NCBI GenBank assembly: GCA_001941225.1
Contig: MSHM01000035.1
Span: 1 to 32,968, forward strand
Source of the DNA: Oscillospiraceae bacterium Zagget12
GTDB taxonomy: Bacteria; Bacillota; Clostridia; UBA1381
Direction: 5' to 3'
Length of the DNA: 32,968 nt
Translations under genes and position numbers: made by a program
The notes under the pieces: generated by a model
What the model was told of the DNA's origin: nothing
Seen by the model: only the letters and a program-made list of their open reading frames with translations
Databases searched by the model: none
Part shown: piece by piece, positions 10,188 to 14,240 of the stretch
How the letters are laid out: every line of letters begins with the position of its first letter
Numbering within the stretch: position 1 is the stretch's first letter

Positions 10188-12212
10188 ATGTTTAAAATCA
10201 CAAAAGACACATCGTTTTCTTTCCCCGCCCTTACCCCTCCGGTAAAGCACGCTTACGATATATTTATGCGCGACTTTACAAAGGTGTTCGGGCAGGGCTT
10301 TAAGGAAGGCGGCGACGTTACGATACATACCGGCTGCGGCTCTCTTGAAAGCGAGCAATTCAGCCTGACGGTTACCGAAAACAACATAAACATTGACTGC
10401 GCCGACGAGCTTGGCGCGGTCTACGCGGTGCTTTATATGAGCCGCGAATTTCTCGGCGTTGACGATTTCTGGTACTGGACGGAAAAAGAACCGAACAAGC
10501 GCAATGCCGTCGCGCTTTCATCAAGGGAATATACCTCGCCTTTGGCAAGGGTTCGTTACAGAGGTTGGTTTGTCAATGACGAGGTATGCCTTATAGGCTG
10601 GAGCGATGAGTACCCGCCGTCGCGCAAGGTTTGGGAAATCGTCTTTGAAACACTGCTGAGGCTCGGCGGTAATATGGTTATTCCCGGCACGGATTTGCCG
10701 AGGAACGGTCATCATTTTGACATCGCGGCGGAAATGGGACTTTACATAACGCATCACCACGCGGAGCCTTTGGGTTCGGAGATGTTTCTGCGAGCCTATC
10801 CCGACAAGGACGCGAGCTACGGCAAGCACCCTAAGCTTTTTGAAAAGCTATGGTCGGATGCCATAGAAAAAAACAAGGATAAAAAAATCGTATGGACGCT
10901 CGGATTTCGCGGTCAGGGCGACGCGCCGTTTTGGCATAACGACCCTAAATACACCACGCCCGAAAGCCGCGCCGCCGTGATACGCTCTGTCATAGACAAA
11001 CAGTATGAGCTTTTATGCGAAAGAGTTAAAAATCCTGTGTGTGCGGTATATCTGTACGGCGAAATCACGGAATTATATGAGGCGGGATATTTAAAACTGC
11101 CGAAAAACTTCATAAAAATATGGTCGGACAACGGCTACGGCAAAATGGTAGTGCGCCGAAACGGCACGCACAATCCGCGCACTCCGTCGCTGCCGCGCGA
11201 GGACGGTATGCACGGTCTTTACTACCACGTTACCTTCCACGATTTGCAGGCGTCAAGTCATCTTACTCTTCTGGGTAACCCGCCGGAAACGGTGAACAGC
11301 GAATTGGACGAGGCATTTAAGGCGGGCGCGGATAAGTATCTGCTCTTAAACTGCGGAAATATACGTCCGCATATTTATATGCTAAAGCTCGTCGCGCAAA
11401 AGTGGAACGCCGGCGAGGTTGATATTGAGCAATTCAAGAATGATTTTGCGAAAAGGTATTTTGACGGCGACAGCGACGCTGTCGAATGTTACAACGATTA
11501 CTTCGACGCGTGTATTAAATACGGCGAAAACGATGACGACAGAGCCGGCGACGAGCTTTATTATCACACCGCCAGACGCATATGCGTGGACTGGGCAAAG
11601 GGCAATAAAATGTCGGACGGGCTTGTGTTCGCGACCGGTGAGGTGCCGTTTCGCGAGCAAACAGAGTTTTTCGCGCGGCGGTGCAAAACGGCAATGGACA
11701 AATTCTCCGCGTTATGCGCCAAATGCGAAAAGGTAAAAAAGGAGCTTAAAAACAGCGTATTCTTTGAGGACAACATAATGTTCCAGGCAAAGCTGCACTT
11801 GAGCGGAGCGAGAGGCTTATATGCTCTGTGCCGCGCGTATGAGTATTACGAAAATAACGATTTGCCGCGCTGTTTTACAATTCTGACGGGCGCTATGGAG
11901 GAATTTTCTGCGGGAGTCACTCTCCTGGAGAGCGGCGAACACGGAAAATGGAAGAATTTTTACAGCTGCGACTGGCTGACGAATGTGCGCATAACCGTGT
12001 ATGCGGTTGACAGTCTGCGCCGATATATACGAATGATTTCGGACGGTCCCGACTTCTTTGCATGGTACAAAAACCATTGCATACCGGAAACGGAACGGCA
12101 GATATACCTTGAAAATACCCAAAGAGAAACCTTATCCGATGACGAGCTGTCACAAAGGCTTAAGGAAAAGCTTTGGAGCGGGCACAAAGTCCGCGGAAAG
12201 GAGTTATCGTGA
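10188..12212 (+). CDS. Glycoside hydrolase family 115 protein (probable alpha-glucuronidase)
   Basis: GH115 enzymes remove (4-O-methyl)glucuronic acid from xylan or its oligomers. Several stretches are recognisably GH115: RVRYRGWFVNDE, GGNMVIPGTDLPRNGH, WTLGFRGQGDAPFW, YLYGEITELYEAGYLKLP, IKIWSDNGYGKMV, and MHGLYYHVTFHDLQASSH. At 674 residues it is shorter than many family members. There is no signal peptide at its N terminus (MFKITKDTSFSF), so it probably acts inside the cell on imported oligosaccharides. The ATG has a strong ribosome site. Its stop codon overlaps the GTG of the next gene (GTGA), so translation is coupled to a secreted lytic transglycosylase. No sugar transporter lies beside it. 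Substrate assignment rests on family membership only. Confidence 0.85.
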   Translation: MFKITKDTSFSFPALTPPVKHAYDIFMRDFTKVFGQGFKEGGDVTIHTGCGSLESEQFSLTVTENNINIDCADELGAVYAVLYMSREFLGVDDFWYWTEKEPNKRNAVALSSREYTSPLARVRYRGWFVNDEVCLIGWSDEYPPSRKVWEIVFETLLRLGGNMVIPGTDLPRNGHHFDIAAEMGLYITHHHAEPLGSEMFLRAYPDKDASYGKHPKLFEKLWSDAIEKNKDKKIVWTLGFRGQGDAPFWHNDPKYTTPESRAAVIRSVIDKQYELLCERVKNPVCAVYLYGEITELYEAGYLKLPKNFIKIWSDNGYGKMVVRRNGTHNPRTPSLPREDGMHGLYYHVTFHDLQASSHLTLLGNPPETVNSELDEAFKAGADKYLLLNCGNIRPHIYMLKLVAQKWNAGEVDIEQFKNDFAKRYFDGDSDAVECYNDYFDACIKYGENDDDRAGDELYYHTARRICVDWAKGNKMSDGLVFATGEVPFREQTEFFARRCKTAMDKFSALCAKCEKVKKELKNSVFFEDNIMFQAKLHLSGARGLYALCRAYEYYENNDLPRCFTILTGAMEEFSAGVTLLESGEHGKWKNFYSCDWLTNVRITVYAVDSLRRYIRMISDGPDFFAWYKNHCIPETERQIYLENTQRETLSDDELSQRLKEKLWSGHKVRGKELS

Positions 12213-13207
12213 AAAAGATAATAGGAACAATACTTGCAGCCGCTTTATCAGTAAGCTCACTGACGGCTTTTGCCTCGGGAGCCATTCCCGACCACAAGGG
12301 AACAAGTATGGACGGAATAGACATAGGAACCGCGTCGCTTAATTCGACGGTTAAATCCTATTCGGATTTATTCAAGGAGGCGGGCGACCAATACGGTGTC
12401 GATCCGAATTTGCTTGCGGCTATATGTATGCAGGAATCCTCCGGAAGAAATTTAAGCTACAGAGATGATGGCAGCGAATATCCCGCTTGGGGCATTATGC
12501 AGATTGAATACACTCTTGAAAGCTCCTTTGCCGAGTTCGGTCTGCGAACCGCCGGCGAAGAATGGACTCTTGAGGACAGGCTTGACCCCGAAAAGGCAGT
12601 TCCGTTCGCGGCGTATCTTATCTCTCAGTCGCTTATAAGCTATGACTGCGATTATATGAAGATGATACAATCGTACAATTTCGGGCAAACCGTGCTTGAC
12701 AGAATAATAGACGCCGTCGGCGACGAATGGCTCAGCGAGCGAATCAACGCCGCGCATTACGCCGACAACTGGCCTTACGACACATACGGCGACGCGGAGT
12801 ATATCGAGCACGTTTTGAGATATTATCATCAGGATATTGATTACATAGGCGCAAAGGTACGCATCAACGGCGAGCTGCTCGCGTTTGAGGACCAGTACCC
12901 TCTGCTTGAAACAATCAACGGCAATACCTACACTCTTATTCCGGTAAGAGGCGTGAGCGAGGCACTTAACGCCGATGTGGAATGGGACGGCGAAAACAAC
13001 ACGGTTGAAATCCAAAAGGACGATATTGATATTACGCTGTTTATAGACAGCGACACCGCTGTTTTAAACGGCGAGGAGGTCGCTCTCGAAACGCCGGCAA
13101 TGATAAAAAACAACAGGACAATGGTTCCTCTGCGTTTTGTGATGGAATCCTTCAATCTCAATGTAGACTGGGATCAGGACACGCGCACCGTTGAAATTAC
13201 AAAGTAA
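12209..13207 (+). CDS. Secreted lytic transglycosylase with copper-amine-oxidase-like C-terminal domain
   Basis: This 332-residue exported protein begins with a signal peptide (KKIIGTILAAALSVSSLTAFAS). An SLT/lysozyme-like domain follows (about 50-180), with the catalytic Glu at about residue 76 in CMQESSGR and the GIMQIEY motif. It would cleave peptidoglycan glycan strands. Residues 215-332 form a copper-amine-oxidase N-terminal-like domain (VRINGELLAFEDQYP, LIPVRGVSEAL, RTMVPLRFVMESF), common in clostridial wall proteins. GTG 12209-12211 is chosen because GGAAAGGAG lies just upstream and the hydrophobic leader then starts correctly. It shares four bases with the stop of the preceding gene. 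An upstream ATG at 12173 would bury the signal peptide. Confidence 0.9.
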   Translation: MKKIIGTILAAALSVSSLTAFASGAIPDHKGTSMDGIDIGTASLNSTVKSYSDLFKEAGDQYGVDPNLLAAICMQESSGRNLSYRDDGSEYPAWGIMQIEYTLESSFAEFGLRTAGEEWTLEDRLDPEKAVPFAAYLISQSLISYDCDYMKMIQSYNFGQTVLDRIIDAVGDEWLSERINAAHYADNWPYDTYGDAEYIEHVLRYYHQDIDYIGAKVRINGELLAFEDQYPLLETINGNTYTLIPVRGVSEALNADVEWDGENNTVEIQKDDIDITLFIDSDTAVLNGEEVALETPAMIKNNRTMVPLRFVMESFNLNVDWDQDTRTVEITK

Positions 13208-13256: not shown

Positions 13257-14174
13257 TTATTCGCACTCATAGGCGAGTAAAAGGTCATAATTCTGTTCTT
13301 CCAAATCGTTTATCCGAATATACATTGTATATTGCTTGCCCTTTTCCACCGACACGCCGTCATCTAAGTCCACCGTCACGCTCAGCTTGTCGTTTTCCTT
13401 AGGGTTGACGTACTCGTCATCGAAATTTATCGCGCTTACTATGTCAATATTCGCTTTGTTGCCATCAACAGAGGTCACCTCGGCTATAGTTGTGTACACA
13501 TCGAAATAATTGATAAGCAGATTTTTGTAATCACTTCCCGTTCCGTCCTTTAGGACAAATACAGGCGAATAATTTCCGAATATATCTATGTCATAGCTCG
13601 ATATTAGGCACAACGGAGCGTAAAGAGTTTTCTCCGCCATCTCGAGCACCTCGCCCCTTGTCGCATCGCCCGCATAGTCAATATCCTGCGAATTATCTAT
13701 AATTCCGACGGCATCTCCCCATGTTCTGTAGCCGCTCGGATAACCGCCCGAGGACTGCGCGTATACTCCGTATCCCACCGTTTCAACAAGCATTTTTATC
13801 GCCTGATCCTCGGTCACGTTTTCATCTGGTCTGAAGGTTCCGTCCTCAAATCCGTTGATTATTCCAATAGTCTGCGCGTACACTATGTAGCTGTATGCCC
13901 AATAATCCTCGTCCACGTCGCTGAAACCCACATTCTTCGCAAGTCCCTCAACGTCCTCATCGGAGATGCCGTACAACGCCACAACCATTTTTACAGCCTC
14001 TGCGCGGGTTATGGTTTCGTCCGGCTTAAATGTCCCGTCGGAATAACCCGAAATTATCCCGAGCTTTTCCATAAGCTCCGTGTCCGCCGTTGTAGGTAAG
14101 TCGCTGAACGCCAGCGCGCTTGTACAGGACAGCGCCACCGCCGCCGACAGTATGATACCAATTACTTTTTTCAT
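13257..14174 (-). CDS. S-layer homology (SLH) domain surface protein
   Basis: This 305-residue exported protein has a signal peptide (MKKVIGIILSAAVALSCTSALA) and SLH repeats. The first (about 22-70) contains GIISGYSDGTFKPDETITRAEAVKM, the second (about 85-135) contains GIINGFEDGTFRPDENVTEDQAIKM, and a weaker third (about 145-185) contains AVGIIDNSQDIDYAGDATRGE. SLH domains anchor proteins to cell-wall polymers. The C-terminal 110 residues form an unrecognised domain. ATG 14174 has GGAGGAAC upstream. Its promoter carries a 12-G tract in the spacer, so expression is probably phase-variable. An overlapping minus-strand frame from 14364 is judged spurious. Confidence 0.9.
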   Translation of the reverse strand: MKKVIGIILSAAVALSCTSALAFSDLPTTADTELMEKLGIISGYSDGTFKPDETITRAEAVKMVVALYGISDEDVEGLAKNVGFSDVDEDYWAYSYIVYAQTIGIINGFEDGTFRPDENVTEDQAIKMLVETVGYGVYAQSSGGYPSGYRTWGDAVGIIDNSQDIDYAGDATRGEVLEMAEKTLYAPLCLISSYDIDIFGNYSPVFVLKDGTGSDYKNLLINYFDVYTTIAEVTSVDGNKANIDIVSAINFDDEYVNPKENDKLSVTVDLDDGVSVEKGKQYTMYIRINDLEEQNYDLLLAYECE

Positions 14175-14211
14175 TTTTGTTCCTCCTTGTTTTTTTGTAT
14201 AACTTTATTAT

Positions 14212-14240
14212 ATTATACCCCCCCCCCCCGATTTTGTCAA
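14212..14240 (-). promoter_or_regulatory. SLH-gene promoter with poly-G tract in the spacer
   Basis: On the minus strand, perfect TTGACA (14235-14240) and perfect TATAAT (14212-14217) are exactly 17 bp apart. The spacer is AAATC followed by 12 consecutive G (14218-14229 on the plus strand as C). Slippage in this tract would change the spacer length and hence promoter strength. Confidence 0.9.

Follow-up and report, generated by a model that had tools for sequence, protein, structure and literature searches.

Poly-G promoter spacers in known systems

The fimbrial promoters of Haemophilus, which a sequence-only reading had named as the parallel to the locus described here, carry dinucleotide repeats, and porA and tp0126, with poly-G in the spacer, are the closer precedents. 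In porA of Neisseria meningitidis a poly-G tract lies between the -35 and -10 elements, and according to the excerpted text of PMC3639595 a change from 11G to 10G results in about 2-fold, and a change to 9G in 13-fold, less surface protein. For tp0126 of Treponema pallidum, the excerpted text of PMC7864442 recounts earlier work according to which transcription from a promoter with a poly-G spacer is best at 17 nt.

The promoter considered here is located in a stretch of 32,968 nt (the whole stretch analysed, hereafter the window) and shares with porA, the expression of which is graded by tract length according to the same excerpt (PMC3639595), a G homopolymer in the core-promoter spacer and a surface protein encoded downstream. 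However, porA codes for one outer-membrane porin of a Gram-negative pathogen, whereas here five complete promoters in a member of the Clostridia precede genes for SLH and dockerin proteins. Likewise, tp0126 codes for a spirochaete outer-membrane protein without a link to dockerin or SLH proteins, and, in contrast to its optimum, most of the tract promoters listed here are off 17 nt. Phase variation by coding homopolymers, as known from Campylobacter, Neisseria and others, is also based on slipped-strand homopolymers, and a coding G9 is found in the source genome, too; yet it works on translation, whereas the tract in the window would work on promoter spacing. Among the literature matches listed, which comprise titles and the starts of abstracts, with subscription papers and preprints outside, there were neither poly-G spacer promoters in Clostridia nor phase-variable dockerin proteins.

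The promoter in the window

The promoter and the gene behind it consist of the following features:

14235..14240, minus strand: -35 hexamer TTGACA, perfect by sequence
14230..14234, minus strand: short arm AAATC from the -35 hexamer to the G tract, ending in TC as do the other five TTGACA-linked arms of the genome
14218..14229, minus strand: G12 homopolymer in the sequence, presumed slippage site setting the spacer length
14212..14217, minus strand: -10 hexamer TATAAT, perfect by sequence, with a 17-nt spacer
14207..14212, minus strand: second TATAAT in the sequence, 22 nt from the -35 hexamer, overlapping the first by one base
14182..14188, minus strand: AAGGAGG, ribosome-binding-site-like as read from the sequence
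13257..14174, minus strand: gene for an SLH surface protein of 305 aa with a signal-peptide-like N-terminus and a Pfam SLH match

The sequence-only reading had described TTGACA and TATAAT as perfect and 17 bp apart, with 12 of the 17 spacer bases forming one G homopolymer, and on both points it was exact, the spacer being made up of G12 at 14229-14218 and the AAATC arm. What it had missed is the second TATAAT, as the -10 region, TATAATATAAT, contains two such hexamers at 14207-14217 on the minus strand. Judged by its spacing, the window copy is predicted to be ON at 17 nt; however, since the second TATAAT lies 22 nt from the -35 hexamer, a shorter tract need not silence the promoter. A tract shorter by five G would place the second TATAAT at 17 nt.

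With respect to chance expectation, the tract is the only run of at least eight G in the window, giving five overlapping matches in contrast to 0.29 expected, a number found in none of 100 shuffles. The pattern TTGACA-N14-20-TATAAT has a single match in the window with 0.09 expected, and at least one match occurred in 9 of 100 shuffles. As in porA and tp0126, the homopolymer is situated between the -35 and the -10 hexamer.

The ATG of the SLH gene is at 14174, 37 nt past the first -10 hexamer. In line with the earlier claim that the gene encodes an exported SLH protein, its product has a signal-peptide-like N-terminus and matches PF00395 (SLH) in two stretches (Pfam, 80.3 bits vs a cut-off of 20.8, E=1e-22). 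The protein matches 36 stretches of its own genome (G000; 1.90 Mb in 44 contigs, 77% complete), and its closest relative found in the genus, in G004, is 72% identical. Upstream on the same strand are ABC transporter genes coding for a solute-binding protein, two permeases and an ATPase, and convergent to the SLH gene is a gene for a transglycosylase-like protein with a copper amine oxidase-like domain (12173-13207). A gene of glycosyl hydrolase family 115 is located at 10188-12212 on the plus strand of the window.

Tract promoters, dockerins and cohesin in the source genome

The source genome contains ten distinct runs of at least nine G (22 overlapping rows), six of which come shortly after TTGACA, and the arms of all six end in TC. 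In five of these six a -10 hexamer is found 0-3 nt past the run (TATAAT four times and TACAAT once), the spacers of the five complete promoters being 17, 17, 18, 18 and 16 nt long. Among these five, an SLH match was found for the window's promoter alone, and the other TTGACA-linked tracts belong to large secreted proteins with repeats and a C-terminal dockerin. The tract at C41:37350-37376 on the minus strand (L226:15351), where TTGACA is followed by G12 but not by a -10 hexamer, lies about 315 nt before a dockerin gene and looks like a decayed tract promoter. In the assembly, a tract-controlled dockerin gene at L223:9725-12852 (G000:C27) is frameshifted after about 490 codons. By eye, two of the remaining four runs of at least nine G are terminator-stem-like and one is situated at the start of a coding region; the explanation as a terminator stem, which suits the runs at C17:67899 and C23:180135, was rejected for the tract in the window, which is unlike these.

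Dockerin_1 can be found in ten places of the genome, five of them in genes behind a TTGACA-linked tract (that on C41 counted). The sixth place is in a gene with a coding G9 and falls under the Pfam cut-off when scanned as protein, and for the four remaining places the fetched upstream DNA contains no G run of six or more. The coding G9 (C27:123514-123522, minus strand; L008; L302:6015) is located within the first codons of this dockerin-type gene. Of two ATG codons here, the one with a ribosome-binding site starts a frame that ends after 15 codons, and the other, created at the first G of the run, starts the long frame of the secreted protein; translational phase variation is possible at this gene, although the sequence only suggests it.

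A cohesin is encoded at C27:146691-147002, about 4 kb from one of the tract promoters, with 34.1 bits when scanned as a piece; a scan of the entire 404-aa protein, in which Cu_amine_oxidN1 domains are also present, did not list it. Cohesin matches occur in 15 of the 16 genus genomes, and with Dockerin_1 in its ten places both partners are encoded in the source genome, as in cohesin-dockerin systems of the cellulosome type. In contrast to these, the tract-controlled proteins that were scanned have no enzyme domains by Pfam but a repetitive or beta-helix look, they are predicted to be phase-variable, and their assembly through cohesin is putative.

Recurrence in relatives and in the wider collection

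Recurrence was assessed with the pattern TTGACA-N3-12-G8-N0-4-TANNNT, and with the exact TATAAT for order and class, in a sample of one genome per species that includes incomplete assemblies and in which the source genome is counted each time. Of the 16 genus genomes 7 have the pattern and 9 lack it, and of the 70 family genomes 10 have it and 60 lack it; its exact version is found in 7 of the 95 order genomes and in 7 of the 391 class genomes. When read backwards, the pattern had no match in any of the genus, family, order and class genomes searched, and with C substituted for G in the run it matched 0 of the 95 order genomes, vs 7 for G. This restriction to G on the coding strand is unexplained by spacing alone; a fit to an extended -10 element, which has a G just upstream, is one possible reason.

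In a public genome collection scanned with a stricter pattern and without a control, at least 119 further stretches were found, some of which may be due to chance. Many of the matches listed are titled Clostridia or Bacilli and come from animal guts, and Saccharibacteria, Spirochaetes, Chloroflexi, Streptobacillus and others are also among them, a scattered distribution which probably reflects many separate origins of the design. Two cultured strains, Pumilibacter muris CLA-AA-M08 and Hydrogenoanaerobacterium saccharovorans An564, are also represented among the matches listed. Three viral contigs (L295, L296 and L297) carry the G-tract promoter pattern with spacers of 14, 21 and 15 nt, respectively. 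In G435 (L306-L310), a near-identical cassette, ATGGTTAAAGTGCTTGACAAAC-G9-TG.TATAAT, with a 15-nt spacer occurs at five loci, four times before lipoprotein-like genes. Upstream of a gene for a 1357-aa protein with a dockerin-type C-terminus in G020:C27, a G11 tract lies at a distance of 60 nt (L237:9376), the usual -35 and -10 hexamers being absent. G010:C26 (L227) and G015:C1 (L228) have the same flanking regulator-like genes and the same 157-aa gene, and the gene that follows the tract promoter is a 230-aa SLH gene in one species and a 303-aa SLH gene in the second, which looks like a reshuffling of promoters or genes.

With regard to the products, open reading frames of at least 100 aa within 150 nt of a tract promoter were collected from the stretches of the collection scan, in which 125 tract promoters were counted (127 rows, a few with a second or weaker -10 hexamer), and duplicates were dropped, leaving 92. 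By a home-made rule, and among the matches listed, 68 of these 92 are signal-peptide-like, in contrast to 72 of 380 other open reading frames in the same stretches (odds ratio 12). A product predicted to be secreted or at the surface is encoded both in the window, as an SLH protein with a signal-peptide-like N-terminus, and, by this rule, in 68 of the 92 cases elsewhere.

Total spacer length

In all DNA fetched, the matches listed comprise 150 tract promoters with perfect hexamers, including the three viral ones (14, 15 and 21 nt), and their spacers of 14 to 21 nt occur 4, 20, 25, 9, 37, 36, 14 and 5 times, respectively. Where perfect promoters of this DNA lack a tract, a 17-nt spacer is found in 32 of 52 cases, or in 33 of 55 after more loci had been added. 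Among the matches listed, 17 nt is therefore found in 9 of 150 tract promoters vs 32 of 52 tract-free promoters (9e-16, Fisher's test). The gap was noticed post hoc. It is located at the sum of arm and tract, since a G9 tract is rarely combined with an 8-nt arm and a G10 tract rarely with a 7-nt arm. When the arms of 125 sites among the matches listed were shuffled against the tract lengths, the expectation for 17 nt was 20.4 sites, in contrast to the 7 observed (P=0.00015); of eight sums tested only 17 is depleted, and 19 is overrepresented (P about 0.004). When each genome contributes a single site, 16, 17 and 18 nt average 21.0, 5.8 and 21.4 sites (P=0.0018). Sites with at least one hexamer mismatch show no gap, but they are few (3 of 14 at 17 nt).

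Outside the collection scan there are 26 sites, two of them at 17 nt and both in the source genome, the window being counted twice (17 and 22 nt); this set overlaps partly with the collection scan (by place and motif, G435:C40 = L044 and G319:C30 = L081), and G435 adds several near-identical 15-nt cassettes to it. None of the 14 sites outside the source genome in the class-genome scan is at 17 nt. As to the search tool, the matches are unordered by spacer and seven 17-nt sites are among those listed, and an artefact of the tool was rejected as the source of the gap.

We read the depletion at the sum of arm and tract as evidence that RNA polymerase, and hence selection, responds to the total spacing, and that the sampled populations are mostly off the optimum; the 17-nt copy in the window would then represent an uncommon, predicted-ON state. 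Alternatives for the gap are a mutationally unstable ON state or an undetected bias among the matches listed. If the promoters are ON at 17 nt, some further reason is needed for the rarity of this spacing elsewhere.

Tract-length variation and contig ends

At loci of the genus other than that of the window, tract lengths range from 9 to 15 G. Comparing loci in the same neighbourhood, with orthology judged by gene order and protein ends and not by a tree, the tracts are unequal in G012 and G009 at two loci (G11 vs G9/G10, and G10 vs G15), and equal in G009 and G013 (both G10) as well as in G009 and G012 at another locus (both G11). The contigs C19 and C27 of G009 overlap at their ends, and the shared sequences, 104 and 103 nt long, differ solely in G10 vs G9, which means that both lengths reached the assembler; they may stem either from the cells or from sequencing error.

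A length fixed at 12 in all relatives, which the sequence-only reading had named as evidence against switching, is therefore not found at the other loci of the genus. At the window's own locus, the G004 contig with the closest SLH orthologue begins just past the tract position, so that this genome is uninformative on tract length.

Contig ends are in fact found near tract promoters in excess. Among the matches listed, 11 of 125 tract promoters are at most 130 nt away from a contig end, vs 1.97 expected, and at 30, 60, 100 and 130 nt the counts are 4, 5, 7 and 11 of 125 vs 0.45, 0.91, 1.51 and 1.97. Within the genus, 4 of 19 tracts are near a contig end (0.15 expected). For G runs outside promoters the count is 0 of 14 (0.13 expected), a sample too small to serve as control. 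However, L028 and L070, on two contigs of one genome, agree in arm, tract and the codons that follow, and L039 and L059 have similar sequence in common within another, and such repeats may account for four of the eleven cases, leaving seven. Also, homopolymer sequencing or PCR error could have given rise to the G9/G10 contigs and the contig breaks.

Probable slipped-strand switching and alternative explanations

Taken together, the repeated use of the design at surface genes, its recurrence with other tract lengths, the G9/G10 contigs, the excess of contig ends and the constraint on the spacer support the earlier claim of phase variation, and we consider it highly probable that the window promoter is phase-variable by slipped-strand change of its G tract. 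G12 would gain or lose single G by slipped-strand mispairing during replication, each change would alter the distance between the -35 and -10 hexamers and thereby how well the housekeeping holoenzyme of RNA polymerase fits, and transcription of the SLH gene would be strong at 17 nt, weaker at 16 or 18 nt and low further away. Slippage as the cause, and a dependence of transcription on tract length in the source organism, are what we infer from this arrangement. The window locus would be one of a repertoire, four more complete tract promoters preceding secreted dockerin proteins, and each cell would show its own combination of surface proteins. The benefit may lie in the escape from phage, immunity or competitors, or in changed adhesion.

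In turn, the tract might be a fixed structural element that acts by making the spacer stiff or bent, through a G-quadruplex on the non-template strand or as a binding site for a regulator, so that expression would be graded and not phase-variable. The exclusive use of G, never C, on the coding strand among the 95 order genomes (7 vs 0) and the TC at the end of all six TTGACA-linked arms in the source genome would be in line with such an element; however, at some pairs of same-neighbourhood loci the tract length differs between species, it also differs between overlapping contigs, and the 17-nt gap tracks the sum of arm and tract and neither of them alone, which renders this explanation improbable.

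Even less credit can be given to the remaining two alternatives. As the locus stems from a single metagenome-assembled genome that is 77% complete, and as G homopolymers are error-prone, the tract might be a chance G run in a promoter, a miscounted homopolymer or an assembly artefact. Yet this is strongly disfavoured by the absence of reversed-pattern matches from the genus, family, order and class genomes, by the recurrence in at least 119 stretches from many projects (in the scan without control) and by the strong signal-peptide bias downstream, and a miscount by one or two would shift the spacer but leave the design. Equally unlikely, in our view, is a once-variable promoter which has become locked in the ON state, at 17 nt, and now acts like any other strong promoter, for an SLH protein that the cell needs. 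While the window copy has precisely the optimal spacing, found in few tract promoters (9 of 150 among the matches listed), sister promoters in the source genome are at 16 and 18 nt and the contig of G004 ends at this very tract; in addition, a run of 12 G is expected to be unstable, which also counts against a locked state.

Implications for gut-type Clostridia

While slipped-strand change of a poly-G spacer is a known mechanism (porA, tp0126), its use for a repertoire of dockerin and SLH proteins in Clostridia and the avoidance of 17 nt appear to be new, and the present case is unlike its precedents in host group, SLH and dockerin targets, multi-locus use, G-only orientation and the 17-nt gap. 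In a wider reading, the truth of which we regard as evenly balanced, uncultured gut-type Clostridia and other Firmicutes would possess a multi-locus, combinatorial poly-G surface repertoire of SLH proteins, cohesin-anchored dockerin adhesins and lipoproteins; their populations would mostly be one or two slips off 17 nt, full expression would be a rare form of bet-hedging, and the gap would have been left by natural selection or by instability of the ON state. The labels "gut-type" and "commensal-type" are taken from the sources given in the records of matching relatives and are presumed for the source genome.

Tract promoters before genes for secreted surface proteins resemble the random on/off switch of some pathogens. 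If the wider reading is true, a switch known mainly from work on a small number of Gram-negative and spirochaete pathogens would be in repeated use for the surface proteins of Gram-positive commensal-type gut bacteria, the cohesin-dockerin system included. The 17-nt gap would then represent a quantitative and testable prediction of the state that populations occupy, and since any metagenome can be searched for the sequence signature and its occurrences counted, the states of the switch and the rate of switching would become measurable in gut communities without culture.
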